NCBI GenBank assembly: GCA_020161935.1
Contig: JAIUNI010000002.1
Location: 434,001-498,000 of the forward strand
From: Chloroflexota bacterium
GTDB taxonomy: Bacteria; Chloroflexota; Anaerolineae; Aggregatilineales; Phototrophicaceae
Length of the DNA stretch: 64,000 nt
Reading direction: 5' to 3'
Below are positions 6,899 to 33,197 of the stretch, in pieces. The position numbers were made by a program, and so were the translations under genes. The notes under the pieces are model-generated. The model was not told where the DNA came from. It searched no databases and worked only from the letters and a program-made list of their open reading frames with translations. Position 1 is the first letter of the stretch. The number at the start of each line of letters is the position of its first letter.

Positions 6899-8560
6899 TT
6901 GAACCGTAATCTACGCACCTCAGTCTATATTTTTAGTGCCATACTGGTTACTCTTTTGGCGGTTGCAACGGCGGGCTGGACGTTTGTCCCTGCTTATGCC
7001 GCCGAAGAGACTGTTGAAACGCCGGTTGTGCCGGAATCGACCCATGCGCCCGAAGAGCCGCCAACTGCCGAGCCGACGGAAGCGCCGCCTGCCGAAGCAC
7101 CGACTAACGCGCCCACCGATGAACCGACTATTGATGCGCCCACCCCGGAACCGGCGACGGATATACCATCGACTGATGTGCCGACTATCGACGCGCCTAC
7201 TGATGAGGCGACTATCGACGCACCCACCGAAGAGGCGACAACCGATGTCACACCAACCGCAGCCGCCGAAGAAACGGTTGAACCGGAGTTAACTGCGGAA
7301 GCGACCGAGGAAGCGACCGAAACAGCCATCGCGCCAGAAGAAACGCTTGAACCGGAAGCGACTGCGGAAGTCACTGAAACACCCATCCCGGTCGAACCCG
7401 AATTCGAGGTTACGCTGTCGTGTAGTGAAAACGGGGTTGAATTCGTCATCACGAACACCGGCGCGGATATGGAAGCCGCCTCTTCATTCACGCTGCAACT
7501 GGATGACGAAGCCAACGCTGCCGCGCCAACACCGCCGACCGACTTACCGGACAGCACCTTCCCGATTGAATTCACCCTGTTGGCTGGCGAATTTACGACC
7601 GTCAAGGCTGGATATGGCCTGCCGCAGATTGTTCTCGACGGCGTACCCTACTACCCGGAAACACCCTGCTTGCCACCAACACCGCCTGTCATCGAGGTGA
7701 GCGCTGTTTGTGCCTTTGAAACGGGTGTGACGTTTACCATCTTGAACACCGGCGGGGCGATGACGGCTGAACAGGGCTACACAATCTCCAACCTTGATGA
7801 ACAGGCCAACAGCACGTTCATCCTCGGCACAAACGAATCCGTCAGCGTTGCAGCCGGTTACGGCCTCCCCACATTGACCACCGGCGAGGTCGTCAGTGGG
7901 TTGGCAGAAACATGCTTTGCGCCGACTTCCATCTCTGGTACCATCTGGGACGACATGAATGAAGATGCGGTACGCGGCGGAGATGAAATTGGCATGAGTG
8001 GTGTGGGAGTCAGCTTGATTGACACCACTGGCACGGCCTTGTATGCGATCAGCGACGCGGATGGCAATTACAATTTCGCCAACATCCCGGTTGCCACCTA
8101 TACGATTAGTGTTGACCTCACAACCCTTTCGAGCGATTATCACGTTTCGTTCCCTGAAAGCACGACGGTCAATTTTCAGGCGTATGAAACGAACACCCCC
8201 ATTGATTTCGGCTTCACGGCGCAGCCCACCGCTTCCATCACTGGCACCGTATGGATGGACTCGACCAACTACGGGGTGCGCGATGCCGATGAAACGGGTA
8301 TCGCCGGGGTGTTGGTTGAACTGGTTGACGCAACCGGCACCGTAGTCGCGACCACGCCTATCGACGCGCTAACCGGCACGTATGTGTTCGTCAATCTATT
8401 CTCCGGCGATTACACCGTTCGTCTCGACCAAAACACGGTGTTCCAACCGAACGCGGTGTCGTTTAACAGCGACAGCACGATTGATTACGAAACGCCGATC
8501 AAACTGACTTCCGGCGAAGCACTGGCGAACATTGACTTTGGCCTTGTAGGCACCTACTGA
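6899..8560 (+). CDS. Secreted Thr/Pro/Glu-rich protein with two SdrD_B domains
   Basis: The TTG at 6899, with AGGA 8 nt upstream, gives MNRNLRTSVYIFS followed by a clean signal peptide ending PAYA-AEE. A GTG at 6809 would add 30 residues but lies at the predicted transcription start, so I prefer TTG. The mature protein (about 520 residues) has a long low-complexity linker of T/E/A/P repeats. Two related modules begin CSENGVEFVITNTG and CAFETGVTFTILNTG. Two SdrD_B/Cna_B-like beta domains follow (SISGTIWDDMNEDAVRGGDE and SITGTVWMDSTNYGVRDADE). No LPXTG or C-terminal membrane segment is present. It is followed 18 bp later by the giant gene, so the two likely form one operon and act together at the cell surface. 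Confidence 0.8.
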   Translation: MNRNLRTSVYIFSAILVTLLAVATAGWTFVPAYAAEETVETPVVPESTHAPEEPPTAEPTEAPPAEAPTNAPTDEPTIDAPTPEPATDIPSTDVPTIDAPTDEATIDAPTEEATTDVTPTAAAEETVEPELTAEATEEATETAIAPEETLEPEATAEVTETPIPVEPEFEVTLSCSENGVEFVITNTGADMEAASSFTLQLDDEANAAAPTPPTDLPDSTFPIEFTLLAGEFTTVKAGYGLPQIVLDGVPYYPETPCLPPTPPVIEVSAVCAFETGVTFTILNTGGAMTAEQGYTISNLDEQANSTFILGTNESVSVAAGYGLPTLTTGEVVSGLAETCFAPTSISGTIWDDMNEDAVRGGDEIGMSGVGVSLIDTTGTALYAISDADGNYNFANIPVATYTISVDLTTLSSDYHVSFPESTTVNFQAYETNTPIDFGFTAQPTASITGTVWMDSTNYGVRDADETGIAGVLVELVDATGTVVATTPIDALTGTYVFVNLFSGDYTVRLDQNTVFQPNAVSFNSDSTIDYETPIKLTSGEALANIDFGLVGTY

Positions 8561-8578
8561 TAAACGGATACATCAAAT

Positions 8579-11500
8579 ATGCGACCTCACCTACGGAAGT
8601 ACTTACGTTCGTCATCTTCCCGCTTCATCGTCATCCTTGCAACGCTCCTCAGCCTTCTGACAATCCTGTCAGAAGGTTTTGCCGTTGATGTCACCTCTAT
8701 CGTCCCGCAGTGGCAAGCGCCCACTGGCAGCAGCGGTGCGCCCACCTGCTTGACGACAGATAATGCCTCCACACCGGTTACAGTACGCTACGGCGACGAT
8801 GATTTGACCAACCCGCCGTGTCCGGCAGCCAGCGTGCAGTCAGGTTTCGGGTTCACAGCCGGATCGACCGGTACCTTTACAAACGGCACTCCGTTTATAT
8901 TGGGGCAGCTCACGCATTTTAATAATCAAGTATTTGCATCCAGTTTACTGACGGGTGCGCGTTTAAATTTGACTTTTACTTCAAACACGCCGGTGCTGCC
9001 CCCTATTGATACACAGGTAGCGCTGGATGAAACGGCGAATAATCTTTCCAACTGCCCTTATGGCGATCCACAGCCTTGCGCTGACCGCGTGACCATTACG
9101 CCGGCTGCGGTCGAATTCAACGAAGCCGGGACGGATTACCAGCTCGAAATCCTCGGCATCATTCCGGGCAGCATCGGGACTTGTACATACAACCAAGCAG
9201 ACCTGCGTTTGTCGTTCATCAGCGATGAAAATTCGAACAACTCCGGCTGCTTGTTCGGGCGTGTCACGATAGTATCCGATGCGGTAATGCAAATCGAGAA
9301 AACAACCACCGCGACCGAGTTACAACCCGGCGATGTTGTGGATTACCAAATTGACTATACCTGCGCCAGTACAACCTCGACCTGTAATGGTGTTCAACTG
9401 GTAGACTTCCTACCGGATGAATTGATTTACGTGGGGTCGTCAGGTTCGACACATACCGTTAGCCCCACAGGCTCCTATTCCACTGGTGGTAACACGGTTA
9501 CGTTTAACTTTATTGACCCGCTTCCGGCTGGTTCAACCGGTTACGTTCGGGTTCGCGCCCGCGTGCGAAACGACGGTACGCTGACGAACGGTCAAACGAT
9601 CACGAATACAGGCACATCAACCCAGACTAACGGCCCGACAACCACGAGTTCGGTTAGCTTACCGGTGACAACCACCTCAGACTGGGAAGTCACGAAGGCG
9701 GGTGACGGCGTTGCTTTCGTTAGCACAGAACCACCGATTACCGACATGACGTATAGCGTCGCCATATGCCCGAATGGCAGTAATGTGAACCTGCTCAACG
9801 CGCAAATGGTGGATACACTGCCAGCGGGCGCGGAATTTGTCAGCGCATCCGGCGGCGGGGTTTACAATGCAGGCGCGAACACGGTCACATGGACATTAGG
9901 CGATTTGTCGATTACCAACGGCTGTAACACACAGACGGTTGTCGTACGCTTCCCCCCTCCGACATTTGCTGCTGGTAATTCCGTCCTGAATACCGTTACC
10001 GGTACAGGAACGATTCCCGATGACGGGCCGTTCAACGATACGGCAGATGTTACACGCATATTGCAGACCTTCGTGCCAGCCGCGTCGATTCAAATCAATA
10101 AAAATACAACCCGTACTGATTATGTCGTGGGTGCGGAAGTCGATTACTTCCTGACGACTGGTAACACGGGTAACACCAATCTGTACAACATGGTGATGAC
10201 CGATGATTTGCCGGATGCTTTCCGTACAACCGAAGTTCAAACGGGATCATCCGCTTTCCCAATGGTCGTCGAATACGCCATCAACGGCAGCAGCACCTAT
10301 ACCACATGGGCGAATGTGCCTGCGGGCAGCAACTCGACCTTAGGCGTTTCGGCTCTCGGATTGCAGCCAACCGATTGGATTACCAGCATCCGCTGGCGGT
10401 TCAACCCCGGCGTGGGTACACCTCCCGGTTGGACTATGGGAAGCAGGGCCCGCATCACTGGAACAATCACCAGCCCCGACCGCAACGGTGTCGCGATTGT
10501 GGAGGCTGACCAGATTAACAACAATGCCCGCCTTGACTGGGAATATCTACCCGGCGGCGTGGGGGATTGCAGCAGCCCCGGCGCACAATGCGGCAGTGGA
10601 ACGGACGGAGCAACGATTGATGTCGTGCCGATCCCCGTACCTGTTTTTGACAAGGTAAGCGGTGGCGGTGTTAGCGCATCTCAGCGTTTCATTATCGGGC
10701 AGCAGGTCGGCTACTTTGACCTCACAGTCGATAACAATACCGGTATTGGGGTTGATAACTTCGTCCTGACGGATAGTATTCCGGCGGCATTTAATGTCAC
10801 CTCGGTCAATGTGGGTAATTACAACGAATATACCAACGCCATCAACCTGCGTTACCAAGCGAGTGACAATCCCGGTGTGTGGGTGACGTGGCCGGGTTCG
10901 CCATTTGCGGAAGGCACGACAGTCAACACCTCCGCCCTCGGCTTACCGGCTGGCATTTATATCTCGCGTTTGGAATTCAACTACGGCTCGATTCCGATGA
11001 ATTTCGAGGGCTACGCCCGAATTATGGGCGAGACGCTGGAGACTGACCGCGATGGCGCAACGGTCGCGGATGGCGATAATATGGTCAACAACGCCAGCAT
11101 GGACTGGGAATTTATGGGGGTGCCGAATAACCGAACCGACAGCACCACCAATCCTATTCATGGACCAACGGTCACTCCGGCGGCGGCGAAATCAACCACG
11201 ACGAACGGCCCTTATATCCCGACTTCCGCAGTCGGCTTCCGGCTAACGTTCGGCGCAGGTGGGGATTCGCCAAGTAATGTGCTGAATAATCCGGTCGTGG
11301 CAGATTTGCTGCCCGCCAATGTGAATTATGTGAGCTACACCTACAACGCCAACGGCACGGGTTTGGCCGCGCCAACCTTCGAGCAAATCGCGGATTACAA
11401 CGGCACAGGCCGTACTCTGGTGCGGTGGCGCTTCACCGGAACCCTAACACGTGGGCAAACGGCCTTCATTGATCTGAACACTACGCTTTCCGCAGGGACA

Positions 11501-14500
11501 CCCAGCGGCAGCCTTGCCAACACGTTCGCGGTTATTGTTGACGATATGCCCACCAACGGCGGCACGCCTGATGCACAGGACTTGGACGGCGATGGGCAAA
11601 CGACCGATACTATTATCACCGCGACCACATCCATACCGGTCGAACAACTCATCGGCCTTGATTCGCAGAAGCGTGTCAGAGGCCAGTTGGATACCGCTTA
11701 CTCGGTATTCCCCAGCTACGGGCACACTGTCCCCAACGGCAGCGTCGATTACCGGCTGACGATCATTAATCGCGGTAATATTCCGGTCAATAACGTGCGC
11801 GTGATTGATATTCTGCCCTTTGTCGGTGATACGGGTGTACAAGATACCCGACCGCGTAATTCAGCGTGGCGGCCTGTTTTGACTGGCCCGGTCACACCGC
11901 AATCGGGCGTGACGATCTATTATTCGACGGCCACTAATCCCTGCCGTCCGCAAATTATTCCCTCTGGTCCGGCGGGTTGTACATCACCAAATTGGTCACT
12001 GGTACCGCCCGCAAATTTGGACACCGTGCGTTCGCTGCGCTTCGACTTCGCGGGGACGATGGCACCGGGACAATCATTCACCTTTAATTGGTCGATGCGT
12101 GCGCCCGCGACCGCCGTAGACGAGTCGATTGCGTGGAACTCGTTCGCGTTTACCTCCACCAACGCCATCACCGGTGTGCCGCTGCGTCCGGCGGAACCGA
12201 ACAAGGTCGGTATCATACTGGATACGACACCACTGACCTCGTTGATTACGCTTAAGAAGTACACCAACACCGAGGATGCTGACCTCGCGCCCGGCCCGTA
12301 CATTCCGCTAAACGGCACGGTCACATGGCGTTACGACGTGACGAATATCGGTCAAACTCGGTTGGGTAATGTAACGCTGACGGATAATGTGGAAGGGACG
12401 ATCACCTGCCCACAGGCGACCCTTGAACCCAACGAATCGATGACGTGTACGCTGGTCAGCCCGAACCCCCCGCAAATTGGGCAGTACGCGAACACGGCGA
12501 ACGTTATCGGTACAGCGATTGACGCGGGTGGCACGCCGATTGATGGCGACCCCGTAGCGCCGGGGACGCAGTTGGTGCAGCCAACCTCGACCGATCCGAG
12601 CCACTATTACGGTTACGACCCGCTGACGGCGAGCATCGGAGATTACACTTGGATTGACCTCGACTATAACGGTCAGCAGGATGTTGGTGAGCCACCGCTG
12701 GGTGGTGTCACAGTGCGGCTGCTGGACTCCAGCGGCAATCCAGTGGATGACCCGTCACAGGCGGGAATTCAGGATTATGTCACCACAACGGATGCGAACG
12801 GGTTCTACAATTTCGTGAACCTTCCGGCAGGGAATTACATCGTTGAATTCGAAATTCCGTCGGCCTATTCGCTGACACTGCCCAACGTCGCCCCGGACGC
12901 GACGGATAGTGATGCCAACATCACCACCGGACGCACCGGTGTTATCCCGCTGGCGGTGGACGAACACAACACGACTGTGGATGCGGGGTATATCGCTTAT
13001 GCTTCGCTGGGCGACCGCATTTGGATGGATACCAACGGTAACGGCATTCAGGATGCCGCCGAAACCGCGACACCTGCCCTTTTGGAAGGGTTGCAAGTCC
13101 TGCTGCTGGACAGCACCGGAACCACGACCATTGCGACAACCTACACCGATGCTGGTGGTAACTACCTTTTCGATAATCTGCTGCCGGGTGACTACATCGT
13201 CCAATTCCCGCTGCCGCCGACCGGTTACGTCTGGACAGCACTCAACGCTGCCGGAAGCACAGCTACGAATGACAGTGACGTTATCCTTGCCACCCGCCGC
13301 ACAGTTACGACGAGTTTGCAGGCCGACGAAAACGACCCATCGTGGGATGCTGGCCTCGTCACACTGGCGAACATCGGTAACTTCGTTTGGTCGGACACCA
13401 ACTTTAACGGGCGGCAAGACGCGGGTGAACCGGGTGTCGCCGGTGTAACCGTACGCCTGCTGAACAGCAGCGGTACACAAGCAACTGACGACAATGGCGT
13501 ACCGATCCCGGATACGACGACCAACGCCAGCGGTGCTTACAGCTTTACGAACCTGCGTCCGCAGCAGTATGCGGTTCGCTTTACACTGCCCACAGGCTAC
13601 ATCTTTACCACGCAAGACGCAGCAGGCTCGACCGACGCGAACGATAGCGACGCGGTTGAAAGCGGCGTGAACATCGGGCAGACCATCGTCACAACCCTCG
13701 ACCCCAGCGAAACCGATAACACATGGGATGCGGGGTTGATTCAACTCGCCAGCCTCGGTAACTTCGTCTGGCAGGATACCAACAATAACGGTCAGCAGGA
13801 TGGGGGTGAACCGGGTGTGGCGGGTGCCATCGTCACACTGCTGGACAGCACAGGTACGCCGGTTACGACCGACGCACTCGGCAACGCGATTACGCCGATC
13901 ACGACTCCGGCTAGCGGCGCGTACAGCTTCACCAACCTCGATCCCCGTATCAGCTATATCGTACAGTTCGAGCGTCCGGCGAATTATGTCTTCGCCACTC
14001 CGAACACAGGCGCGGACGCGACCGACAGTGACGCGGTAGTTTCGAACTTGCTGCCCGTAAGAATCGCCCATACGGGAACGATTACGCTTACTGCGGGACA
14101 AAACGATACCACGATTGATGCGGGTCTGGTTCAGGCCGCTTCGATTGGCAACTATGTCTTCTATGACAATAACAACAATGGTCAGCAGGATGCGGGAGAC
14201 GCGCCAGTCCAAGGTGTGACCGTCCGCTTGCTGAATGCTGCGGGCAACCAAGCAACCGACGAACAAGGTACGCTGATCCCTGATCTCGTCACGGATGCAA
14301 ACGGCCTTTACCAATTCACAAACTTGATCCCCGGTACCTACTCACTGTATTTCTCGACCCTACCGGCAACCTACACCTTCGCACAACGGGATATTGGCTC
14401 GGATGTGACTGACAGTGACCCGAACCGTTTCACAGGCCGAACGATTACCACCGTACTTGCCCCAAATGAAACGGATCTCACATGGGATACAGGGTTGGTC

Positions 14501-17500
14501 GTGGCTGCGGCATTGGGCGATTTCGTGTGGATTGATACGAACGCCAACGGTCAACAGGACGGCGGCGAAGCAGGGTTAGCCGGTGTGACCGTCCGCCTGC
14601 TCGACGGCAGCAATAACCCGATTGATAACCCGAATACCGCAGCCCTCAACGATGCTTACACCGCAACAACTGATGTCAACGGTAACTACAGCTTCGTCGG
14701 CCTGCCGCCGAACCTCACCTACCGCGTCCGCTTCGACCGACCGGCAGGCTATGTCTTTACGGCTGCCAACACGGGCGCGGACGCAACCGACAGCGATGGT
14801 GTGTTGAACGGTCAAACGAATGTAGCAACCGTCACCACAAACAACATCACAACCTTAACCCCCGGCACGACCGACAACACTTGGGATCAAGGGGTGCTGC
14901 TGCCATCGGCGCTGGGCGATTATGTCTGGCGTGATAACAACGATGATGGCTTGCAAACCGGCGGTGAACCTGCGATTAGCGGCGTAACCGTGCGGTTGCT
15001 CGACAGCGCAGGAGCAGCGGTCGATGATCCCAACACGAACGGCACACAGGCTTACACCGCCACGACGAATGCCAGCGGCTTATACAGCTTCACCAACCTC
15101 TATCCGGGTACGTACATCGTTGAGTTCGTCACGCCAACTGGCTACAAGCGGGCAGATTACTTCGTCGGCGGCGGAACAAACGCGGCGACCGACAGCGACA
15201 TGCAGACAGCGGGTGTCAGCGCGGGGCGCACACCGACGATCACGCTGCCCTACAATACAACCGACAACACATGGGACGCGGGTTTCGTGCCGCTGGCGAC
15301 CATTGGCAACTTCGTCTGGCGCGATAACGACAATGACGGTGTTCAGGATGTGGGTGAACCGGGTGTGGCCGGTGCAACCGTCACACTGTTGGACAGCACC
15401 GGCACAGCAGTGACGACAGACGGCATGGGGAACGCCATCAGCCCGATTGTCACCACTGGCACGGGCGCGTACAGTTTCACCAACCTTGACCCCGATATTG
15501 ACTATATTGTGCAGTTCACGCTGCCTACACCAGCAGCGGGGCAAGCTGGTTACAAGTTCAGCCCACAAGATGTTGGCGCGGATACCACCGACAGCGACGC
15601 GGATACCACCACCGGACGCACAGCGGTTATCCCTCTCAATCCGGGGCAAACCGATAACGACCGTGATGCGGGTTTGACACCGCTGGCGCAGTTGGGTAAC
15701 TACGTCTGGAATGACTTGAACGGCGATGGTGTACAAGGTGGCGCGGGTGAACTGGGTATCAATAATGTGACGGTCGAGTTGTTCCTGTCGAGCAACCTTG
15801 TCACGCCTATCGCCACAACTACGACGGGCAACAACCCGGTTGGCGGCGCGGCAGGCTACTACCAGTTCCTAAACCTCGACGCGGGAACGTACGCCGTCCG
15901 GTTTACCCTGCCATCGGGTTATGTCTTTACGCGGCAAGACGCGGCAGCGGCCACCGACGCGACCGACAGTGATGCGAATCGCTTCACCGGTTTCACCGGA
16001 AGCTATACCCTAGCATGGGGTGGTTCGAACCAAACCATTGATGCAGGTATCGTCCAACCCGCGAGCCTCGGCGACTACGTGTGGTATGACACAGATGACG
16101 ACGGTATTCAGGACGTAACGGAAGTCGGGCAGAACGGCGTGGTCGTCCGCTTGTTGGATGCAGCCAATAACCCGATTGATGACCCGAACACGCCCGCCGT
16201 CAATGATGCTTATGTGCTGACGACTGCGAATAATCCGGTGGGCGGCGCACCCGGCTACTATGTATTCCAAAACCTGCTGCCGGGGGATTACCGTGTGCAG
16301 TTTGACCTGCCAGCCAGCACCTTACCACAACCCAGCGTGGACTATGTTCTGGCACGGCAAAATCAGGGTGGTGATGATGCGCTGGACAGTGACCCTGATC
16401 GCGCGACAGGCATCACCGCGACCATCAACCTGAGCGCCAATGAAAATGACATGACCAACGACGCGGGTATCCTGCTGCGTGGCGCGAACCTCGGCAACCG
16501 TGTATGGATCGACCTCAACAACAACGGTATTCAGGACGGTGGCGAAGTCGGCTTGAACGGTGTAACGGTTACGCTGCTGAACGGCTCCGGCGGCACGGAT
16601 ATTGATCCAATCACCCCCGGCACACAGACACTCAGCACCGTAACGGCATTCGATGCGACGGTTGGCAATGGCTACTACCAATTCACCGAACTGGTACCCG
16701 GCACTTATATCGTCCAAGTCACACTGCCTGCTGGATACCAGTTCAGCCCGCAGAATCAGGGTGGGGATGATACGGTTGATAGTGATGTTAACCTGACCAC
16801 CGGGCGTACCGCTGTCATCACCGTCGCCCAAGACGGAGACGACCAGACATGGGATGCGGGTGTCGTGCCGCTGGCGAGCATCGGTGATTATGTCTGGCGC
16901 GATAACAATAACGACGGCTTACAAACGGTGGGCGAACCTGCTCTGGCGGGTGTCGTTGTCCGGCTGCTGGATACCGCCAACAATCCGGTCGATAACCCGA
17001 ATGTCGCGGGCTTCCAAGCCTACACATACACCACTGTGGCGGACGGCGCGTATCTGTTCAACAACCTGCCGCCAGATGTTTCGTATGTGGTGCAGTTCGA
17101 CTTACCTGCTACCGGTTACCGCCGCTCGCCTGTTGATGCGAATGGCAACACCAACGACGCGACCGACAGCGACGCGAACCTGACCACAGGCCGCAGCCCG
17201 GCGACACTGCTTTCGCCGAATGAGTTTGATAACACGGTGGATGCAGGCTTCGTGCCGCTGGCAACCATCGGCGACTATGTATGGATCGACACCGACGGCG
17301 ACGGTGTACAGGATGCGGGCGAAGTCGGCTTGAACGGCGTGACGGTGAACCTGTACGACGCGGCAAACCTCAGCACGATCCTGCGTACCACCACCACCGC
17401 CAACAATCCAGTCGGCGGCGCACCCGGTTACTACCAGTTCTCGAACCTCGATGCGGGTAGCTACGTGGTCGAGTTTGTCCAACCGGTAGGGTACATTTTC

Positions 17501-20500
17501 ACCAACCCGAACATCAACAGCGCGGCCACAACCCCGGCCTCAACCGACGCGAACGACAGCGATGCCGACCGTTACACAGGGCGCACTGGCACTTACGTCC
17601 TGAACTGGGGCGACAGTGTTCAAACCGTAGACGCAGGTGTCCTGCAACCAGCGGCGCTCGGCAACTACGTCTGGGTGGATACCAATGACAACGGTGTTCA
17701 GGACGGCGGCGAGCTTGGCTTGGACGGCGTGACTGTTCACCTGCTCGATAGCGCGGGTAATCCCGTTGATAACCCGAATACGGCTGCGGTCGGTGATGCA
17801 TATACCGTCACCACAGCGGGCGGCGGGGCGTATGCCTTCACCGGCTTGCTGCCCGGCACCTACTCGGTACAGTTCGACCTGCCGAATGCGACTTACGTGT
17901 TCGCACGGCAGGATGCGGCAGCCGCGACCGACGCGACCGACAGCGACGCGAACCGCACCACCGGACGCACCGGTAACTATACGCTGATCGCCAACCAGAC
18001 CGACAACACGGTTGACGCGGGTATGCTGCTGCGGGCAAGCCTCGGCGACTACGTATGGATTGATACGGATGGCGACGGTGTTCAGGATGGCGGCGAAACC
18101 GGTGTCCAGAACGTGACCGTCACCCTCTACGACGGTACCGGCGCACAGGTCGATAACCCGAACACGCCAGCGGTGGACACCTATGTCGTCCAGACCGATG
18201 TGAACGGCGCGTATCTCTTCAACAACCTCATCCCCGGCGACTACTATTTGGTCTTTACCCTGCCCTCCGGCTACATCTTCACACGGCAGGACGCAGCCGC
18301 CGCGACCGACGCGACCGACAGCGACGCGAATCGCTTCAATGGACGCACGATTACGACGGCGCTGATCTCCGGCGAGAATGATCTGACGTGGGACGCGGGT
18401 ATTTTGCAACCAGCGGCGCTCGGCAACTACGTGTGGGTGGATACCAATGACAACGGTGTTCAGGACGGTGGCGAGCTTGGCTTGGACGGCGTGACCGTTC
18501 ACCTGCTCGACAACGCGGGTAATCCCGTTGATAACCCGAATACGGCTGCGGTCGGTGATGCATATACCGTCACCACAGCGGGCGGCGGGGCATATGCCTT
18601 CACTGGCCTGTTCCCCGGCGTGTACGCGGTACAGTTCGACCTGCCCAACACGACCTACGCTTTCGCACGGCAGGATGCGGCAGCCGCCACCGACGCGACC
18701 GACAGCGATGCCGACCGCACCACCGGACGCACCGGTAACTATACGCTCATCGCCAACCAGACCGACAACACAGTTGACGCGGGTGTCCTCGCACGCGCCA
18801 GCCTCGGCGACTTCGTGTGGAACGATGTCAACGGCAACGGTGTTCAGGATGGCGCTGAAACCGGTGTCCAGAACGTAACTGTCACCCTCTACGACGGCAC
18901 GGGCGCACAGGTCGATAATCCGAACACGCCAGCGGTGGACACCTATGTCGTCCAGACCGATGTGAACGGCGCGTATCTCTTCAACAACCTCATCCCCGGC
19001 GACTACTATGTCGTGTTCACTCTGCCCTCCGGCTACATCTTCACACGGCAGGACGCAGCCGCTGCGACCGACCTGACCGACAGTGATGCCGACCGCTTCA
19101 ACGGACGCACGATTACGACGGCGCTAATCTCCGGCGAGAATGACTTGACGTGGGACGCGGGTATCCTGCAACCCGCCGCACTCGGCAACTACGTCTGGGT
19201 GGACACCAACGACAACGGTGTTCAGGACGGCGGCGAGCTTGGCTTGGACGGCGTGACTGTTCACCTGCTCGACAACGCGGGTAATCCCGTTGATAACCCG
19301 AACACGGCTGCGGTCGGTGATGCATATACCGTCACCACAGCGGGCGGCGGGGCGTATGCCTTCACTGGCTTGTTCCCCGGCGTGTACGCGGTGGAGTTCG
19401 TCCTGCCCGGCGCAACCGATGTGTTCGCGCGGCAGAACCAAGGCGGCGACGACACACTTGACAGCGATGCCGACCGCACCACCGGACGCACCGGTAACTA
19501 TACGCTGATCGCCAACCAGACCGACAACACGGTTGACGCGGGTGTCCTCGCACGCGCCAGCCTCGGTGACTTCGTGTGGAACGATGTCAACGGCAACGGT
19601 GTTCAGGACGGCGGCGAAACCGGTGTCCAGAACGTGACCGTCACCCTCTACGACGGTACCGGCGCACAGGTCGATAACCCGAACACGCCAGCAGCGGATA
19701 CCTATGTCGTCCAGACCGATGTGAACGGCGCGTATCTCTTCAACAACCTGATCCCCGGCGACTACTATGTCGTGTTCACCCTGCCCTCCGGCTACATCTT
19801 CACACGGCAGGACGCAGCCGCCGCGACCGACGCGACCGACAGTGATGCTGACCGCTTCAACGGTCGCACGATTACGACGGCGCTGATCTCCGGCGAGAAT
19901 GACCTGACATGGGATGCAGGTATCTTGCAACCAGCGGCGCTCGGCAACTTTGTCTGGATCGACACCAACGACAACGGTGTTCAGGACAGCGGTGAAACCG
20001 GCCTCGCGGGTGTCACCGTGCGGCTGTTGGATAATGCTGGCAACCCCGTCAATGACCCGAACAATCCAGTCGCGACACCCTATGTCGTCACCACCGATGT
20101 CAATGGGGCGTATGCCTTCACCGGCCTGCTCCCCGGTGACTACGCGGTACAGTTCGACCTGCCATCGGCGGACTACGTGTTCGCACGGCAGGCTGCGGCA
20201 GCCGCGACCGACGCAACCGACAGCGACGCGAACCGCACCACCGGACGCACCGGTAACTATACGCTGATCGCCAACCAGACCGATAACACAGTCGATGCGG
20301 GTATGATGCAGCGGGCGAGCATCGGTAACTTCGTGTGGCTGGACATGAATGACAACGGCATTCAGGACAGCGCCGAAACCGGCCTCGCGGGTGTCACCGT
20401 CAACCTGACCGATGAAAACGCTGTGATGACGACCACCACCACCCTGTTCGACGGCTCGTACCTGTTCGACAACCTCGTACCGGGGAACTACAGTCTGCAA

Positions 20501-23500
20501 TTCGTCTTACCGTCGAACCAGTACGAGTTCAGCGACCTCAATCAGGGCAGCGACCCTGCGCTCGACAGTGACGCGAACATCACCACCGGCAGCACGGTTA
20601 TCACCCACCTGACCTCCAACGAGGATGATATGACGTGGGACGCGGGTATTGTTCCGCTTGCCAGCATCGGCGACCGTGTGTGGATCGACATCAACAATAA
20701 CGGTGTTCAGGATGGCGGCGAGGCCGATTACGTCGGCGCGACCGTGAACCTGCTCAACAGCAGCGGCACGGTCATCGCGACCACCACCACTAACGCCACC
20801 GGTAACTATCTGTTCGACCGCCTGTCACCCGGTCAGTACGCTGTCCAGGTGGTGCTGCCGACTGGCTACCAGTTCAGCCCGCAGGATGTGGGCGGCGCGG
20901 ACGCTTCGGACAGTGACGTGAACACCACAACCGGACGTACCATCACGACAACCCTCATCCCCGGCGAAAACGATTTAAGCTGGGACGCGGGCTTGGTTCC
21001 GCTGGTGAGCATCGGCAACTATGTCTGGGTCGATATGAATAACGACGGCGTACAAGATGGCGCGGAAACGGGTGCAAGCGGTGTCACCGTCAACCTGCTC
21101 AACAGCGCGGGAACGATCATCGCGACGACCACCACCAACGCCACCGGTAACTATCTGTTCAACAACCTGCCGCCCGACGACTACCGCGTCGAGTTTGTAC
21201 TGCCCGCTGGCTACCAGTTCAGCCCGCCAGACGCAGGAGGCGACGACAGCCTCGACAGCGACGCGAACCCGACCACCGGACGCACCATCCTTGTGAACCT
21301 GCCCCCCGGCACGAACGACCTCTCGCGTGATGCGGGTATCGTCCCGCTGACCAGCATCGGTAACTTCGTCTGGCGCGACAACAACGGTGACGGTATTCAG
21401 GACGCGGGTGAACCGGGCATCGCGGGGATTACCGTCCAGTTGCACGGTGGGCCGACGGTCTTAACCACGACCACCGATGTGAATGGTAACTACCTGTTCA
21501 ATCTGCTGCCGCCGGGGAACTACTACATCGAAGTCGTCGTCCCGAATGACTACGCGGTTAGCCCGTTGAATGCGGGTGGTGACACGGCGCTCGACAACGA
21601 CATTGACCCGGCCACCAACCGCAGCGTGACCACCACCCTCATCCCTGACGAAGACGATATGACATGGGATGTCGGCTTGGCTCCGCTGGCGAACATCGGC
21701 GACCGTGTATGGGTGGACGCTAACGCGGATGGTATTCAGGATGCGGGTGAGAACGGCTTGGCGGGTATCACCGTCAATCTGCTGGACGCGGGTGGCAACC
21801 TGCTGGAAACCACCACGACCGACACGAACGGCTTGTACCTGTTCGATAACCTGCGTCCCGGTGATTACATCATCGAGGTTATCCTGCCCGCCGACTCGAC
21901 GTTCAGCCCGATGGACGCGGCAGCAGCGACGGATGCAACCGACAGCGACGTTGACCCCACGACCGGACGCACCATCGCCGTCAACCTCGGCTACGGTGAA
22001 ATCGACCTGACGTGGGATGCGGGTATTGTCCCGTTGGGGAGCATTGGTGATTACGTGTGGAACGACACCAACGCCAACGGTATCCAGGACGCAGGTGAAG
22101 CTGGCATTCCGAACGTCACCGTCAACCTGACCGACAGCAATGGTGTGACAATCTCCGTCGTGACCGACAGCACAGGCCACTACCTGTTCACCGACCTGCT
22201 GGCGGACAGCTACACCATCACCGTTGACACGACTACCCTGCCAGCGGGCATGGGACAAACCTACGACCTGAATGGTACGCTCGACCACAGCGCCACCTAC
22301 ACGCTGGGCATCGGTGAAGACGTGCTGACGGTTGACTTCGGATACGTGCTGCTTGGCTCTATCGGCGACACCATCTGGGTTGATAACAATCGCAACGGCA
22401 TTCAGGATGGCAGTGAACCCGGCATCCCGAATGTGACGGTGACGCTGGTTCTGCCGGACGGCTCAACCCTGACCACCACGACCGATGCCAACGGCAACTA
22501 CAGCTTCACCGATTTGTATCCCGGTGATTACCGTGTGGTTGTTGACCTGTCCACCATTCCCTCAACGCTGCTGCCCGTCTTTGATCCCGACGGCACCTTC
22601 GACGGTTGGACGGATGTCACACTGAGCGCGGGCGAGCAGCACATCACGGCTGACTTCGGCTACGCGCCGCCCATTCCGCCCGGTCCGGCCTTAACACCGA
22701 CACCGGTGCCGACCGCCGACACCAGCGGGCTGTCACAGGGGGTGGGCGTGTGTACACGCGGCTGCGTCGATTGGCAGTTGTATCACTCCAACCAGACCGG
22801 CGATTGGGAAATCTTCCGCCTCGACAAAACGGGTGATTTGGACTCGCCAAGCATCAGCACCAACCTGTCGCAGGGTGAAGACGCGGAAGATATGGCACCG
22901 ACCCGTTCGCCTAACGCCGAATGGATCGTGTTCTCCAGCAACCGCGATGGCAACTGGGAACTGTATCTGGCCTCGACTGACGGTGATCGCAGCAAGACAC
23001 GGCGCTTGACCTACAACACCTTCGCCCATGACACCGATCCGGTTTGGGGGCCGAACAACTACGTGGTGTACGAAACCACCCGCGACGGCAACTGGGAACT
23101 CTACCTGCTCGATATGACGACTGGCCGCGAAAGCCGCCTGACCAATAACGCGGCGAGCGACATCAATGCCTACTGGTCATCGGATGGGAAGAGCCTGTTG
23201 TTCCAGAGCGACCGCAGCGGCCTGTGGCAGATTTATCGCTATGATCTGGCGACAGGGCAAATCACCCGCCTGAGCGACGGCACCGCCAACGATGTCGATC
23301 CGCAGTACAGCAACAACGACGGTCGTATCGCCTTCCGGTCATACCGCGATGGCGCAAAGAGTACGCTCTACCTCATGAACAGCGACGGCAGCGGCCTCAA
23401 GCGCATCAGCGATGTGGATGGCGACGCGACCAACCAGTCGTGGTCAACCAACGACAGTTTGATTGCCTACCAATCCGACCTCGACGGCGATCTCGACATC

Positions 23501-23953
23501 TACATCTACCAAGTTGGCACGGGGATTACACGTAAGCTGACCGAGAACACCATCCCGGACTACGCGCCGACATGGTTGTGTAACGGAACGATTGTGGTCT
23601 TCACCTCGGACATCGACGGCAACCCGAACATCTTCGACGCAGACGCGCTGGCGATCAAAGCACCCGCTATCGACGTACAGGAAGAAGCCAACCGCCTGAC
23701 CACCGATCCAGCGGATGACATCTATCCTGAAAACTCGCCTGTGGAAGAAAACGCCAGCCGTGAAGGTCGCCTGCCGGGGATCAACCTCGGTGCCCAGACC
23801 GACTTCCTCATCCCTGATGTAACGGTGACGGACTTCGACCCCTCGCTCGATACCGGGCGCGTGATAGAACCGATTGACGGGTGCGGTGCGGGTTCGACGG
23901 CGTTAAGGCCCACACCCACCCCAACGCCTACGGCGACACTGGGCGGGACATAA
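8579..23953 (+). CDS. Giant secreted SdrD_B-repeat protein with C-terminal beta-propeller
   Basis: One uninterrupted frame encodes 5,124 residues. Order: signal peptide (about 1-36); a Cys-containing N-terminal domain (to about 235); some seven DUF11-like Ig-type domains with L-x-N/D-V-x-x-x-D-x-L-P signatures (about 236-1345); 27 SdrD_B units of about 124 residues (1351-4697); a Pro/Thr linker; a TolB/PD40-type propeller (about 4731-5020) with repeated DGNWELYL blades; and an acidic tail ending in a PTPTPT run. Each SdrD_B unit begins with G(D/N)xVWxDxNxNGxQDxGE, whose spaced acidic residues match the calcium loop of staphylococcal Sdr B-repeats, so a calcium-stiffened rod is likely. No sortase motif or C-terminal membrane anchor is visible. 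Likely an adhesin or surface fibre; the function is inference. Confidence 0.9.
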   Translation: MRPHLRKYLRSSSSRFIVILATLLSLLTILSEGFAVDVTSIVPQWQAPTGSSGAPTCLTTDNASTPVTVRYGDDDLTNPPCPAASVQSGFGFTAGSTGTFTNGTPFILGQLTHFNNQVFASSLLTGARLNLTFTSNTPVLPPIDTQVALDETANNLSNCPYGDPQPCADRVTITPAAVEFNEAGTDYQLEILGIIPGSIGTCTYNQADLRLSFISDENSNNSGCLFGRVTIVSDAVMQIEKTTTATELQPGDVVDYQIDYTCASTTSTCNGVQLVDFLPDELIYVGSSGSTHTVSPTGSYSTGGNTVTFNFIDPLPAGSTGYVRVRARVRNDGTLTNGQTITNTGTSTQTNGPTTTSSVSLPVTTTSDWEVTKAGDGVAFVSTEPPITDMTYSVAICPNGSNVNLLNAQMVDTLPAGAEFVSASGGGVYNAGANTVTWTLGDLSITNGCNTQTVVVRFPPPTFAAGNSVLNTVTGTGTIPDDGPFNDTADVTRILQTFVPAASIQINKNTTRTDYVVGAEVDYFLTTGNTGNTNLYNMVMTDDLPDAFRTTEVQTGSSAFPMVVEYAINGSSTYTTWANVPAGSNSTLGVSALGLQPTDWITSIRWRFNPGVGTPPGWTMGSRARITGTITSPDRNGVAIVEADQINNNARLDWEYLPGGVGDCSSPGAQCGSGTDGATIDVVPIPVPVFDKVSGGGVSASQRFIIGQQVGYFDLTVDNNTGIGVDNFVLTDSIPAAFNVTSVNVGNYNEYTNAINLRYQASDNPGVWVTWPGSPFAEGTTVNTSALGLPAGIYISRLEFNYGSIPMNFEGYARIMGETLETDRDGATVADGDNMVNNASMDWEFMGVPNNRTDSTTNPIHGPTVTPAAAKSTTTNGPYIPTSAVGFRLTFGAGGDSPSNVLNNPVVADLLPANVNYVSYTYNANGTGLAAPTFEQIADYNGTGRTLVRWRFTGTLTRGQTAFIDLNTTLSAGTPSGSLANTFAVIVDDMPTNGGTPDAQDLDGDGQTTDTIITATTSIPVEQLIGLDSQKRVRGQLDTAYSVFPSYGHTVPNGSVDYRLTIINRGNIPVNNVRVIDILPFVGDTGVQDTRPRNSAWRPVLTGPVTPQSGVTIYYSTATNPCRPQIIPSGPAGCTSPNWSLVPPANLDTVRSLRFDFAGTMAPGQSFTFNWSMRAPATAVDESIAWNSFAFTSTNAITGVPLRPAEPNKVGIILDTTPLTSLITLKKYTNTEDADLAPGPYIPLNGTVTWRYDVTNIGQTRLGNVTLTDNVEGTITCPQATLEPNESMTCTLVSPNPPQIGQYANTANVIGTAIDAGGTPIDGDPVAPGTQLVQPTSTDPSHYYGYDPLTASIGDYTWIDLDYNGQQDVGEPPLGGVTVRLLDSSGNPVDDPSQAGIQDYVTTTDANGFYNFVNLPAGNYIVEFEIPSAYSLTLPNVAPDATDSDANITTGRTGVIPLAVDEHNTTVDAGYIAYASLGDRIWMDTNGNGIQDAAETATPALLEGLQVLLLDSTGTTTIATTYTDAGGNYLFDNLLPGDYIVQFPLPPTGYVWTALNAAGSTATNDSDVILATRRTVTTSLQADENDPSWDAGLVTLANIGNFVWSDTNFNGRQDAGEPGVAGVTVRLLNSSGTQATDDNGVPIPDTTTNASGAYSFTNLRPQQYAVRFTLPTGYIFTTQDAAGSTDANDSDAVESGVNIGQTIVTTLDPSETDNTWDAGLIQLASLGNFVWQDTNNNGQQDGGEPGVAGAIVTLLDSTGTPVTTDALGNAITPITTPASGAYSFTNLDPRISYIVQFERPANYVFATPNTGADATDSDAVVSNLLPVRIAHTGTITLTAGQNDTTIDAGLVQAASIGNYVFYDNNNNGQQDAGDAPVQGVTVRLLNAAGNQATDEQGTLIPDLVTDANGLYQFTNLIPGTYSLYFSTLPATYTFAQRDIGSDVTDSDPNRFTGRTITTVLAPNETDLTWDTGLVVAAALGDFVWIDTNANGQQDGGEAGLAGVTVRLLDGSNNPIDNPNTAALNDAYTATTDVNGNYSFVGLPPNLTYRVRFDRPAGYVFTAANTGADATDSDGVLNGQTNVATVTTNNITTLTPGTTDNTWDQGVLLPSALGDYVWRDNNDDGLQTGGEPAISGVTVRLLDSAGAAVDDPNTNGTQAYTATTNASGLYSFTNLYPGTYIVEFVTPTGYKRADYFVGGGTNAATDSDMQTAGVSAGRTPTITLPYNTTDNTWDAGFVPLATIGNFVWRDNDNDGVQDVGEPGVAGATVTLLDSTGTAVTTDGMGNAISPIVTTGTGAYSFTNLDPDIDYIVQFTLPTPAAGQAGYKFSPQDVGADTTDSDADTTTGRTAVIPLNPGQTDNDRDAGLTPLAQLGNYVWNDLNGDGVQGGAGELGINNVTVELFLSSNLVTPIATTTTGNNPVGGAAGYYQFLNLDAGTYAVRFTLPSGYVFTRQDAAAATDATDSDANRFTGFTGSYTLAWGGSNQTIDAGIVQPASLGDYVWYDTDDDGIQDVTEVGQNGVVVRLLDAANNPIDDPNTPAVNDAYVLTTANNPVGGAPGYYVFQNLLPGDYRVQFDLPASTLPQPSVDYVLARQNQGGDDALDSDPDRATGITATINLSANENDMTNDAGILLRGANLGNRVWIDLNNNGIQDGGEVGLNGVTVTLLNGSGGTDIDPITPGTQTLSTVTAFDATVGNGYYQFTELVPGTYIVQVTLPAGYQFSPQNQGGDDTVDSDVNLTTGRTAVITVAQDGDDQTWDAGVVPLASIGDYVWRDNNNDGLQTVGEPALAGVVVRLLDTANNPVDNPNVAGFQAYTYTTVADGAYLFNNLPPDVSYVVQFDLPATGYRRSPVDANGNTNDATDSDANLTTGRSPATLLSPNEFDNTVDAGFVPLATIGDYVWIDTDGDGVQDAGEVGLNGVTVNLYDAANLSTILRTTTTANNPVGGAPGYYQFSNLDAGSYVVEFVQPVGYIFTNPNINSAATTPASTDANDSDADRYTGRTGTYVLNWGDSVQTVDAGVLQPAALGNYVWVDTNDNGVQDGGELGLDGVTVHLLDSAGNPVDNPNTAAVGDAYTVTTAGGGAYAFTGLLPGTYSVQFDLPNATYVFARQDAAAATDATDSDANRTTGRTGNYTLIANQTDNTVDAGMLLRASLGDYVWIDTDGDGVQDGGETGVQNVTVTLYDGTGAQVDNPNTPAVDTYVVQTDVNGAYLFNNLIPGDYYLVFTLPSGYIFTRQDAAAATDATDSDANRFNGRTITTALISGENDLTWDAGILQPAALGNYVWVDTNDNGVQDGGELGLDGVTVHLLDNAGNPVDNPNTAAVGDAYTVTTAGGGAYAFTGLFPGVYAVQFDLPNTTYAFARQDAAAATDATDSDADRTTGRTGNYTLIANQTDNTVDAGVLARASLGDFVWNDVNGNGVQDGAETGVQNVTVTLYDGTGAQVDNPNTPAVDTYVVQTDVNGAYLFNNLIPGDYYVVFTLPSGYIFTRQDAAAATDLTDSDADRFNGRTITTALISGENDLTWDAGILQPAALGNYVWVDTNDNGVQDGGELGLDGVTVHLLDNAGNPVDNPNTAAVGDAYTVTTAGGGAYAFTGLFPGVYAVEFVLPGATDVFARQNQGGDDTLDSDADRTTGRTGNYTLIANQTDNTVDAGVLARASLGDFVWNDVNGNGVQDGGETGVQNVTVTLYDGTGAQVDNPNTPAADTYVVQTDVNGAYLFNNLIPGDYYVVFTLPSGYIFTRQDAAAATDATDSDADRFNGRTITTALISGENDLTWDAGILQPAALGNFVWIDTNDNGVQDSGETGLAGVTVRLLDNAGNPVNDPNNPVATPYVVTTDVNGAYAFTGLLPGDYAVQFDLPSADYVFARQAAAAATDATDSDANRTTGRTGNYTLIANQTDNTVDAGMMQRASIGNFVWLDMNDNGIQDSAETGLAGVTVNLTDENAVMTTTTTLFDGSYLFDNLVPGNYSLQFVLPSNQYEFSDLNQGSDPALDSDANITTGSTVITHLTSNEDDMTWDAGIVPLASIGDRVWIDINNNGVQDGGEADYVGATVNLLNSSGTVIATTTTNATGNYLFDRLSPGQYAVQVVLPTGYQFSPQDVGGADASDSDVNTTTGRTITTTLIPGENDLSWDAGLVPLVSIGNYVWVDMNNDGVQDGAETGASGVTVNLLNSAGTIIATTTTNATGNYLFNNLPPDDYRVEFVLPAGYQFSPPDAGGDDSLDSDANPTTGRTILVNLPPGTNDLSRDAGIVPLTSIGNFVWRDNNGDGIQDAGEPGIAGITVQLHGGPTVLTTTTDVNGNYLFNLLPPGNYYIEVVVPNDYAVSPLNAGGDTALDNDIDPATNRSVTTTLIPDEDDMTWDVGLAPLANIGDRVWVDANADGIQDAGENGLAGITVNLLDAGGNLLETTTTDTNGLYLFDNLRPGDYIIEVILPADSTFSPMDAAAATDATDSDVDPTTGRTIAVNLGYGEIDLTWDAGIVPLGSIGDYVWNDTNANGIQDAGEAGIPNVTVNLTDSNGVTISVVTDSTGHYLFTDLLADSYTITVDTTTLPAGMGQTYDLNGTLDHSATYTLGIGEDVLTVDFGYVLLGSIGDTIWVDNNRNGIQDGSEPGIPNVTVTLVLPDGSTLTTTTDANGNYSFTDLYPGDYRVVVDLSTIPSTLLPVFDPDGTFDGWTDVTLSAGEQHITADFGYAPPIPPGPALTPTPVPTADTSGLSQGVGVCTRGCVDWQLYHSNQTGDWEIFRLDKTGDLDSPSISTNLSQGEDAEDMAPTRSPNAEWIVFSSNRDGNWELYLASTDGDRSKTRRLTYNTFAHDTDPVWGPNNYVVYETTRDGNWELYLLDMTTGRESRLTNNAASDINAYWSSDGKSLLFQSDRSGLWQIYRYDLATGQITRLSDGTANDVDPQYSNNDGRIAFRSYRDGAKSTLYLMNSDGSGLKRISDVDGDATNQSWSTNDSLIAYQSDLDGDLDIYIYQVGTGITRKLTENTIPDYAPTWLCNGTIVVFTSDIDGNPNIFDADALAIKAPAIDVQEEANRLTTDPADDIYPENSPVEENASREGRLPGINLGAQTDFLIPDVTVTDFDPSLDTGRVIEPIDGCGAGSTALRPTPTPTPTATLGGT
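12629..22671 (+). repeat. Array of 27 SdrD_B coding repeats
   Basis: I counted 27 successive units by the signature (A/S)xxG(D/N)xVWxDxNxNGxQDxxE, averaging about 372 bp each. The first starts at 12629 (ASIGDYTWIDLDYNG) and the last at about 22350 (GSIGDTIWVDNNRNG). Outer units have diverged in sequence, while the central block (17645-19927) is almost identical at DNA level. Units end with a NxxTxDAG motif before the next begins. Confidence 0.9.
17645..20655 (+). repeat. 762-bp tandem two-domain duplication
   Basis: Within the SdrD_B array a pair of units (one with GELGLDGVTVHLLD, one with GETGVQNVTVTLYD) is repeated. Equivalent points lie at 17645, 18407, 19169 and 19928, giving spacings of 762, 762 and 759 bp. 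The first three copies are nearly identical in DNA; the fourth has drifted (GLAGVTVRLLD). This implies recent unequal exchange, and a region where assemblers may collapse or expand copies. Confidence 0.9.
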
Positions 23954-23970
23954 GACTTATCAGACACAAT

Positions 23971-24002
23971 ATGAAAATGACTCCAATTGGAGTCATTTTC
24001 AT
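23971..24002. terminator. Bidirectional terminator, perfect 32-bp palindrome
   Basis: ATGAAAATGACTCCAA (23971-23986) is followed directly by its exact reverse complement (23987-24002). The A-rich arm reads as a U-rich tract on the opposite strand, so it can stop transcripts from both the giant gene (+) and the fructan operon (-), which converge here. Confidence 0.8.
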
Positions 24003-24037: not shown

Positions 24038-25576
24038 CTACCCCGCGCAGAAGTCAAAGTCGGCACGGCGGGCAGCGTCGCTATCCGCGCCCCAGATGCT
24101 GTTCAGGGCGTAGATTTCCAGATGCTTAACCTCAAGTGTCCCCTTTTCGGCGAACAGCGCCACGCCCTTATCCGCCGCGTTCGTGAAATCTTGTCCGGTG
24201 ATCGAGAACACACCGTCCTGAGCCAGCACCTCAACCGAGGACTCATCCACGAAGATGTGCAAGCGCAGCGGTTCGGCGCTAAACGGGATGGGCGCACCAA
24301 ACGCGGTGGTAAAGTTATTGATGACTCCTTCAGCGGGTTGGTCACTGCGGCTGATGAGCAGCTTGGACTGCGCCGTGTTATAAACGATGCGCGTCTTATT
24401 TTCCGCGCCGCGATGCACATCAATGCCGAAGCGTTCGGCGCTGCTGGCGCTGATCTCGACGATGATTTCCAGCGTGCGGCCTTCTACACCTTCCAACACC
24501 AAGTCCCCATCGACCGTCAGATCATCCCATGTGCCGAGCGGCTGGCGCAGCGTCTCGAACTCTGCGGGAATGGACTGCGCCAACCGGATACCGTCCGCCG
24601 TCCGCACCAAACGTAGTTCACGCGGCAGGGTGTTTGCCCCACGCCACGGTGCCGTCGGCAGGCTGGTCGCGTACTGCCAGTTATCCATCCAGCCGATGTA
24701 GACGCGGCGGTCGGGCAGATCGCTCCATGTGGTTCCGGCGTAGTTATCCGGCCCATAGTCGATCCACAGTTGCGGCGCGTCAGTGTCGTAGGTGAACGTG
24801 CGCCCATCAAAGTCACCGATAAAATACTGCACACCGCCCCCACCAGCGGGCGCGAGTTGGCTGATGCTGGCGAGGAAAATCCACTTGGTTTCGCCGTCGA
24901 TTTCCAGCGGGAACAAATCCGGCACTTCCCACACGCCGCCGAGGATGCCACCGCGAAAACTCTGCGTGTGTTCCCAGTTGATCAAATTCGGCGACACGAA
25001 AATTTGGAGTTCAGGGCCAGCGGCAATCGGCATCACCCAATGCTGGCTCGCCTCGTGCCAGAATACTTTCGGGTCGCGGAAGTCTTTCGCCAACGCCCCA
25101 ATCACTGGATTACCGTCGTATTTCGTCCACGTCCGTCCTTTGTCGCTGCTGTAAGCAATCCCCTGCGACTGGTTCTCATACGAGTAGATGGCAACCAAAC
25201 CGCCGCCGGGAACAAGCCCGCTGGTATTGTTCGCATCCACCACCACACTACCTGACCAGATCGGGCCATTGTCATCGGGATACAGCGCAATCGGCAGCGT
25301 TTGCCAGTGAACAAGGTCAGGGCTAACGGCATGTCCCCAATGAATTTTGAAGGGGGTCATCGCCGCCGGATTAAACTGGTAAAAGAGATGATACTCGCCC
25401 TCATAATAGACCATGCCATTCGGGTCGTTCATCCACTGGCAGGGCGGACTGTAATGGAACTGCGGGCGGTAAGGTTCGTGATAGAAATTATCTTGAGCCA
25501 TCGTCATACTCCCTATAAGTGAAACGATCAGAATGGTGAGCAGTCGCGTTGTCATCAGGTGGCGCACATATCGCAT
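24038..25576 (-). CDS. Secreted GH32 fructosidase (levanase/invertase type)
   Basis: About 512 residues in the version starting at ATG 25576 (MRYVRHLMTTRLL), which has GGGG nine bases upstream. A signal peptide follows (hydrophobic LLTILIVSLIGSMTMA, then QDNFYHEP). Clan GH-J hallmarks are present: WMNDPNG (nucleophile Asp), FRDPKVF (transition-state Asp), and WEVPDLF, where the Glu acid/base sits; the usual Cys after it is Val. The C-terminal beta-sandwich of GH32 follows. It should hydrolyse beta-fructosidic bonds of fructans or sucrose outside the cell, feeding the ABC transporter encoded upstream in the same operon. The last gene of the minus-strand run; whether it is exo- or endo-acting cannot be told. 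Confidence 0.9.
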   Translation of the reverse strand: MRYVRHLMTTRLLTILIVSLIGSMTMAQDNFYHEPYRPQFHYSPPCQWMNDPNGMVYYEGEYHLFYQFNPAAMTPFKIHWGHAVSPDLVHWQTLPIALYPDDNGPIWSGSVVVDANNTSGLVPGGGLVAIYSYENQSQGIAYSSDKGRTWTKYDGNPVIGALAKDFRDPKVFWHEASQHWVMPIAAGPELQIFVSPNLINWEHTQSFRGGILGGVWEVPDLFPLEIDGETKWIFLASISQLAPAGGGGVQYFIGDFDGRTFTYDTDAPQLWIDYGPDNYAGTTWSDLPDRRVYIGWMDNWQYATSLPTAPWRGANTLPRELRLVRTADGIRLAQSIPAEFETLRQPLGTWDDLTVDGDLVLEGVEGRTLEIIVEISASSAERFGIDVHRGAENKTRIVYNTAQSKLLISRSDQPAEGVINNFTTAFGAPIPFSAEPLRLHIFVDESSVEVLAQDGVFSITGQDFTNAADKGVALFAEKGTLEVKHLEIYALNSIWGADSDAARRADFDFCAG

Positions 25577-25689
25577 GATGATAAACCCCAATCTCTTATC
25601 GCCAATGGTCAGCAGCTAGCAGCACTAAACTCAGCATCCGTAAAAAGGAATGCTGTGTATCTGAATATTCACTTTGACCCGTCACAGGC

Positions 25690-28226: not shown

Positions 28227-28239
28227 GAACAGCAGTACC

Positions 28240-29130: not shown

Positions 29131-29145
29131 AATAAAATTAACCCC

Positions 29146-30105: not shown

Positions 30106-30125
30106 GCTGTTACCTCCTCAAGTTT

Positions 30126-30151
30126 AGCGGGGAACGTTTCGGCTCCCCGCT
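30126..30151 (-). promoter_or_regulatory. Intercistronic stem-loop
   Basis: AGCGGGGA (30126-30133) pairs with TCCCCGCT (30144-30151) across a 10-nt loop, just after the stop of the binding-protein gene. Such hairpins commonly protect the upstream message or partly terminate, giving more binding protein than permease. No long T-run follows on the minus strand, favouring stabilisation. Confidence 0.55.
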
Positions 30152-30172
30152 GACAACTGCTTACTGTAATAT

Positions 30173-31567: not shown

Positions 31568-31652
31568 CATTTCCTCCATAAAACATAAACACACACATGC
31601 TCAATTTGATGGGTTAATCCGTGTGATGTCGTTACCGAATCACCTCCCTCGT

Positions 31653-33161: not shown

Positions 33162-33197
33162 AATGAACCCCAACATTTAATTCCAAAAAATGATTTT

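Follow-up and report, generated by a model that had tools for sequence, protein, structure and literature searches.

A 5,124-residue protein of an Aggregatilineales bacterium with DUF11-type domains, a 27-unit SdrD_B rod and a C-terminal propeller shared across the order

The giant gene and its neighbours

The window analysed here is a 64,000-nucleotide stretch of contig JAIUNI010000002.1 from a Chloroflexota bacterium of the order Aggregatilineales. On its forward strand, positions 8579-23953 form one stop-free frame from ATG to stop, which translates into 5,124 amino acids (about 538 kDa) and is very acidic, with a computed pI of about 4.05. An original prediction, made from the sequence alone, had described this unbroken 15.4-kb frame as a surface-type protein with a signal peptide, about seven DUF11-like domains, 27 SdrD_B units and a C-terminal PD40-type propeller, ending without an LPXTG anchor. 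Profile searches for the individual modules returned SdrD_B, DUF11/DUF7507 and PD40/TolB matches, and the frame and the listed modules all stand, although the list had overlooked a choice-of-anchor K domain near the N-terminus.

The protein starts with a hydrophobic segment (8579-8683, residues 1-35) that we read by eye as a Sec-type signal peptide, with cleavage probable after GFA; comparable cleavage sites, such as VSA-LT, are found in the orthologues. The mature N-terminus (8684-9286) holds the choice-of-anchor K domain (NCBIfam NF038131; residues 45-195, 57.3 bits against a cut-off of 30), which is kept in the orthologues from genomes G014, G024, G074 and G084. Seven Ig-like domains of the DUF11/DUF7507 (CLIPPER) type follow at 9287-12628, and after them the rod of 27 SdrD_B units at 12629-22669 (3,350 residues). 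A Pro/Thr-rich linker (22670-22747) leads from the rod to a TolB-type propeller (22748-23758), which opens with a CxxxC motif and closes with DxYPxNxPxEENASR. A tail with one cysteine (23759-23953), ending in PTPTPTPTATLGGT, precedes the stop codon.

Inspection of the C-terminal sequence, RPTPTPTPTATLGGT, found neither an LPXTG signal nor a membrane helix, in line with what had been predicted. The motifs LPPTG in SdrD_B unit 2 and LPATG in unit 12 are part of the folded units; as no hydrophobic, charged tail follows either of them, they do not count as sorting signals. Anchoring of the giant protein through LPXTG was rejected, despite three sortase-family matches elsewhere in the genome.

Only 18 bp separate the giant gene from the gene upstream on the same strand (6809-8560), which encodes a secreted or membrane-anchored protein of 583 amino acids with a Pro/Thr/Glu-rich spacer, two Ig-like repeats, two SdrD_B units and the C-terminus FGLVGTY. 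The original prediction had named this protein, placed at 6899-8560, as a partner. The partnership is likely, as a homologue lies directly upstream of the giant gene in all five orthologous loci; the longest frame, however, starts at 6809, with a plausible alternative start at 6899 (TTG, preceded by GAGGAA). In G014 and G024 the partner begins with a membrane segment that looks uncleaved, followed by a long spacer that is acidic or rich in Pro, Thr and Glu, and in the window and G074 its N-terminal segment looks cleavable. It is possible that the partner serves as a membrane-held base for the giant protein. More distant homologues of the partner occur in two other genomes of the same family (G069 and G072; loci L192 and L193), directly upstream of another large secreted protein; the one in G072 has a choice-of-anchor K match, and its counterpart in G069 is truncated, with an N-terminus that looks alike. 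Ahead of the gene pair lies a non-coding, partly AT-rich stretch of 416 bp (6393-6808); no Rfam family matched in the window, this stretch included.

Downstream, a perfect, terminator-like hairpin of 14 pairs (23971-24002) sits between the giant gene and a convergent GH32 gene. On the minus strand from 24038 to 33176, two GH32 genes (fructan/sucrose-type) flank two transport permeases and the genes for a BNR/sortilin-type protein, for a TAT-signal protein without other Pfam match (30173-31594) and for a divergent chaperonin. The chaperonin gene (26595-28226) lies between the permease genes, near the two GH32 genes, and encodes a 543-residue protein of the Cpn60/TCP-1 family that scores only 122 bits with the Pfam model, a candidate for a diverged chaperonin paralogue within a locus for sugar transport.

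Length of the gene and build of the stalk

Misassembly of this long gene was rejected on three grounds, namely the single frame, the terminator-like hairpin behind it and an orthologue of comparable length; exact direct repeats within the gene reach 90 bp at most. We also rejected the loss of a C-terminal anchor by frameshift, because the hairpin lies past the stop codon and no frame there continues the protein or encodes an anchor.

Counting the window genome, orthologues of the giant gene occur in five genomes of one family. The most informative is that of G024, from another genus, where both ends of one contig fall within the gene and share the same 99 bases. Joined over this overlap, they yield a single 5,280-residue frame with the same module order, 28 SdrD_B units and two propellers. 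With a length of 485,746 bp and identical 99-bp ends spanned by the giant gene, this contig (contig 13 of G024; L059, L060) is possibly circular, a replicon of some 486 kb. The orthologue in G014, of the same genus as the window genome, is split: a 3,709-residue fragment with 18 SdrD_B units and two propellers lies on one contig, and the missing first part, with the partner, the choice-of-anchor K domain and DUF11 sequence, lies at the end of another. G074 and G084 hold the N-terminal half up to a contig end. Identity among orthologues is 48-59% in the DUF11 region where both sequences are complete (52% over the part present in G014) and 67-69% in the first propeller. The tail of the window protein matches the linker that leads to the second propeller in G014 and G024, and the window protein has therefore probably lost one propeller. 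A different giant family, of about 4,460 residues with four SdrD_B-like units and without a propeller match, occurs in three further genomes of the same genus (G016, G006 and G005; L064, L065 and L066); one of its three frames, that of L065, ends with the fetched stretch.

The rod itself bears the mark of recent growth. Units 14, 16 and 18 share 86-94% identity with one another and units 15, 17 and 19 share 93-98%, whereas adjacent units within 14-19 are only about 50-60% identical. Unit 20 belongs to the 14/16/18 type but has diverged further (73-81%), and the older units share 36-68%. This alternating pattern points to recent amplification of a two-unit (A-B) block, covering units 14-20 at 17654-20305.

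Of the seven DUF11-type domains, which reach to about residue 1350, the first three (DUF11) and the seventh (DUF7507) score above their cut-offs. Domains 4-6 fall below threshold and were accepted because each carries one invariant lysine and is present in full-length orthologues, which makes up the predicted count of about seven. In alignment the domains diverge too far from one another for Asp and Asn partner columns to stand out, but each starts with a lysine (K241, K373, K508, K692, K871, K1031 and K1227). The 1,115 residues of this region hold nine lysines in total, and eight of the nine are invariant in four orthologues, compared with 32% of all columns (hypergeometric P = 7e-4); all seven at domain starts are among the invariant ones. 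DUF11 domains form isopeptide bonds that begin from a lysine at the domain start (PMC12617251), and from the lysine positions we predict such bonds in the window protein.

The SdrD_B units appear to be stabilised differently. All 27 units in the frame exceed the curated Pfam cut-off (PF17210, 29.7 bits), exactly the number predicted, and a strict loop pattern, D/N-x-D/N-x-D/N/S-G-x-Q...E, is present in 26 of them, with DSD or DND in 25. The 3,350-residue rod contains two lysines and no cysteine, and in the other four genomes, as far as their rods are covered, the lysine counts are 1, 0, 0 and 0, which excludes isopeptide bonds in nearly all units. Judged by sequence, the stalk is thus divided between DUF11 domains of the isopeptide type and an almost lysine-free rod with calcium-type loops. 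An AlphaFold model of a unit pair reached a mean pLDDT of 95.3, and its best structural match is SdrD B1-B2 (entry 10ps). B units are about 4-4.5 nm long, and by this general per-unit length the rod alone may measure about 110-120 nm. Loops of this kind occur in the B domains of SdrD and SdrG, whose unfolding takes more than 2 nN when calcium is present (PMC6232131), and the B tracts of SdrD are rigid and rod-like (PMC13174682). Together with the loops, these reports support the original suggestion of a calcium-stiffened rod, and we predict that the window rod would bind calcium and be stiff.

A propeller family at the C-terminus

The predicted C-terminal propeller was borne out by Pfam and NCBIfam profiles and by structure comparison, which identify it as a PD40/TolB propeller; its nearest solved relatives are TolB and S9-type propellers. 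The structure model, computed from four sequences, shows a propeller fold with modest confidence (mean pLDDT 69, 80-90 in the core and below 50 in the tail), and its strand pattern suggests that there are probably seven blades.

Of the 154 genomes of the order, 63 have a match to the window propeller at E below 1e-55. Sixty of these places, chosen mainly for their long frames, make up a set of 66 proteins together with five further ones and the window itself. All 66 end in the propeller as their last module, be it one copy or a tandem, with no more than 43 residues beyond the last propeller match, and each frame runs to a stop codon. Of the 48 frames whose 5′ end is complete, only one (L128) does not encode a hydrophobic N-terminal segment. 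The stalks vary: of 19 scanned with Pfam, 12 contain PKD domains, three DUF11 and one SdrD_B, and in the shorter proteins the stalk is mainly rich in Pro and Thr or without Pfam match. The window genome alone encodes four propeller proteins, of 5,124, 4,811 (PKD and DUF11), 986 and 1,052 residues. The propeller is thus a shared end-module of the order on interchangeable stalks, and probably a shared end-piece for docking or recognition. The original prediction had implied that the combination of SdrD_B rod and propeller was singular, and this was not supported; the same module order recurs in the orthologues of one family, and across the order the propeller sits at the C-terminus of many stalks.

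We call this group the Aggregatilineales C-terminal propeller family, a name coined here, with a propeller bearing the ENASR motif as last module as the mark of membership; the window protein has this mark. An alignment of 46 diverse members has a mean column identity of 46%, with the tail motif DxYPxNxPxEENASR conserved to the same degree as the blades. In a 400-genome spread of the phylum, hits beyond the order at E below 1e-80 were few and weaker, scoring under 291 bits compared with 318-554 bits for the window genome; a single other family of the class accounts for all of them.

A tree of 42 single propellers places the window sequence in a 14-member subfamily (support 99/98), whose members have cleavable-looking signal peptides, an extra cysteine before the first blade and a cysteine in a longer tail. 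The two go together, as all 22 proteins with a tail cysteine also have the CxxxC start. Members of the sister subfamily are mostly membrane-anchored, with a short tail that lacks the cysteine. The association of cysteine tail with cleavable signal peptide gives P 8e-5 in Fisher's test, uncorrected for ancestry, but it is not independent evidence, since the signal labels follow ancestry and the tree requires just four changes of label.

Tip or base, and comparison with known systems

The reading we favour, with roughly even confidence, is that of a secreted, adhesin-like fibre, long and stiff, which combines two force-resistant kinds of fold and presents the shared propeller as its head. The chain would be exported through its Sec signal, leaving the choice-of-anchor K domain as mature N-terminus. 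Seven DUF11 domains, each able to lock itself by a lysine isopeptide bond, would come next, and 27 calcium-type SdrD_B units would then form the rod. The propeller, presumably closed by a disulfide between Cys4725 and Cys5102, would come last; most likely it sits at the free end and serves there as a head for docking or recognition. The giant fibrillar protein would be produced together with its upstream SdrD_B partner, with whose product we expect it to pair. The original description as a surface-type protein is supported, and we infer the surface location and the head function.

The original prediction had left open whether the propeller lies at the tip or at the base of the fibre. Relatives held at the other end favour the tip. 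About 18 of them have an N-terminal membrane segment that looks uncleaved and one has a lipobox (signal-peptide and membrane-segment labels were assigned by eye), and among the class-level relatives in the other family, 8 of 10 have a lipobox among residues 1-60, and in each of the 10 the propeller is still C-terminal. With the N-terminus held in this way, the propeller of such proteins would be at the free end. The argument relies on relatives, mostly from the sister propeller subfamily, because the window protein has a cleavable-looking signal peptide and, like its own subfamily, no recognisable anchor. By extension, the propeller of the window protein would lie at the tip rather than at the base, though in its own subfamily the base is also a plausible reading.

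A possible, if doubtful, alternative is that the propeller is the base, attaching the C-terminus non-covalently and independently of sortase to the wall, the S-layer or a partner protein, so that the choice-of-anchor K domain and the DUF11 part would stay outside. The propeller occupies the usual place of LPXTG or PEP-CTERM signals, and choice-of-anchor proteins usually bear their anchor at the C-terminus. It is also the window subfamily, all 14 rows with cleavable-looking signal peptides and no other anchor, that has the cysteine tail, which is absent from the sister subfamily with its N-terminal membrane segments, although tail and anchor type changed independently just a few times on the tree, which makes this association weak. 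A precedent exists in PilY1, which docks by a conserved C-terminal seven-bladed propeller (PMC13190605). Against attachment through the propeller, the same module ends proteins that a membrane segment or lipobox already anchors N-terminally and that need no second anchor. Moreover, no PF00691 (OmpA/Pal family) match was found in the genome, with controls positive; a partner of the TolB-Pal type was rejected on this ground. The broader proposal that the propeller is a lineage-wide, disulfide-closed attachment module, docking giant stalks to the envelope or to a membrane-held partner without sortase, seems to us rather unlikely.

We consider it improbable that the protein is a released matrix fibre or a component of an S-layer-like sheath, making side contacts only, with the propeller as a folding cap that protects the C-terminus. 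The missing anchor and the strongly acidic composition would suit such a fibre, as would the disulfide-type closure, whose cysteine is conserved together with the tail in all 22 proteins. A mere cap, however, would not need the conserved DxYPxNxPxEENASR motif or a mean identity of 46% over 46 diverse members, and short proteins also end in single propellers. That the propeller is an enzyme or a regulatory domain of a peptidase, as its structural likeness to the propellers of S9 peptidases and to oligogalacturonate lyase might suggest, is very improbable, as none of the 66 proteins has an alpha/beta-hydrolase domain after the propeller and the Pectate_lyase22 match is weak and below its cut-off.

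Every module of the giant protein is already known. Searches of the open-licence literature on choice-of-anchor proteins, Chloroflexi giant proteins and propellers, and PD40 with PKD turned up neither this combination nor anything on the order-wide C-terminal propeller family; little was found there on adhesive or filamentous surface construction in Chloroflexota. The family offers a simple handle on such construction, as a single kind of propeller stands at the end of stalks that range from under 800 to about 6,000 residues, and it bears on the question whether a propeller can be a terminal head or an anchor. In the window protein, the stalk unites two known force-resisting types, since its DUF11 domains, towards the N-terminus, are of the isopeptide type and its SdrD_B rod is of the calcium type.

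Each half of this stalk has its counterpart among known adhesins. The staphylococcal MSCRAMM adhesins SdrD, SdrG and UafA likewise carry a tandem SdrD_B stalk of the calcium type, and the best solved match, 10ps, is one of theirs. They have a few units rather than 27, and the giant protein lacks their N2-N3 ligand domain, SD repeat and C-terminal LPXTG, with a propeller at its C-terminus; when it was scanned in pieces with the NCBIfam SdrD model, its C-terminal third reached 738.5 bits and its middle part 655 bits, far below the cut-off of 2500. Fibrillar adhesins of the DUF11/CLIPPER type share a secreted stalk of tandem DUF11/DUF7507 domains with a lysine at each domain start (PMC12617251), to which the giant protein adds the long SdrD_B rod and the terminal propeller, and it is without a known sorting domain.

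For the propeller, TolB of the Tol-Pal system is closest by both sequence and fold. The TolB equivalog model nevertheless scores 147.9 bits, below its cut-off of 343.15, and the giant protein lacks the N-terminal TolB domain, its propeller being a C-terminal module of surface proteins. BapP of Pseudoalteromonas tunicata also combines a propeller with a calcium-type beta-sandwich stalk, but its propeller is five-bladed and N-terminal, and a type I secretion route is suggested for it (PMC12153261). The best organisational analogue appears to be PilY1/PilC, pilus-tip proteins in which a conserved C-terminal seven-bladed propeller stands behind variable N-terminal parts (PMC13190605). The likeness is one of arrangement: the propeller of the giant protein matches PD40/TolB, PF05567 (the PilY1 propeller) is not among the Pfam matches of its C-terminal third, and no sequence relation was found. 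In PilY1 the propeller can be the docking side and is not thought to be the adhesive part (PMC13190605), which keeps attachment through the propeller alive as a reading of the giant protein.
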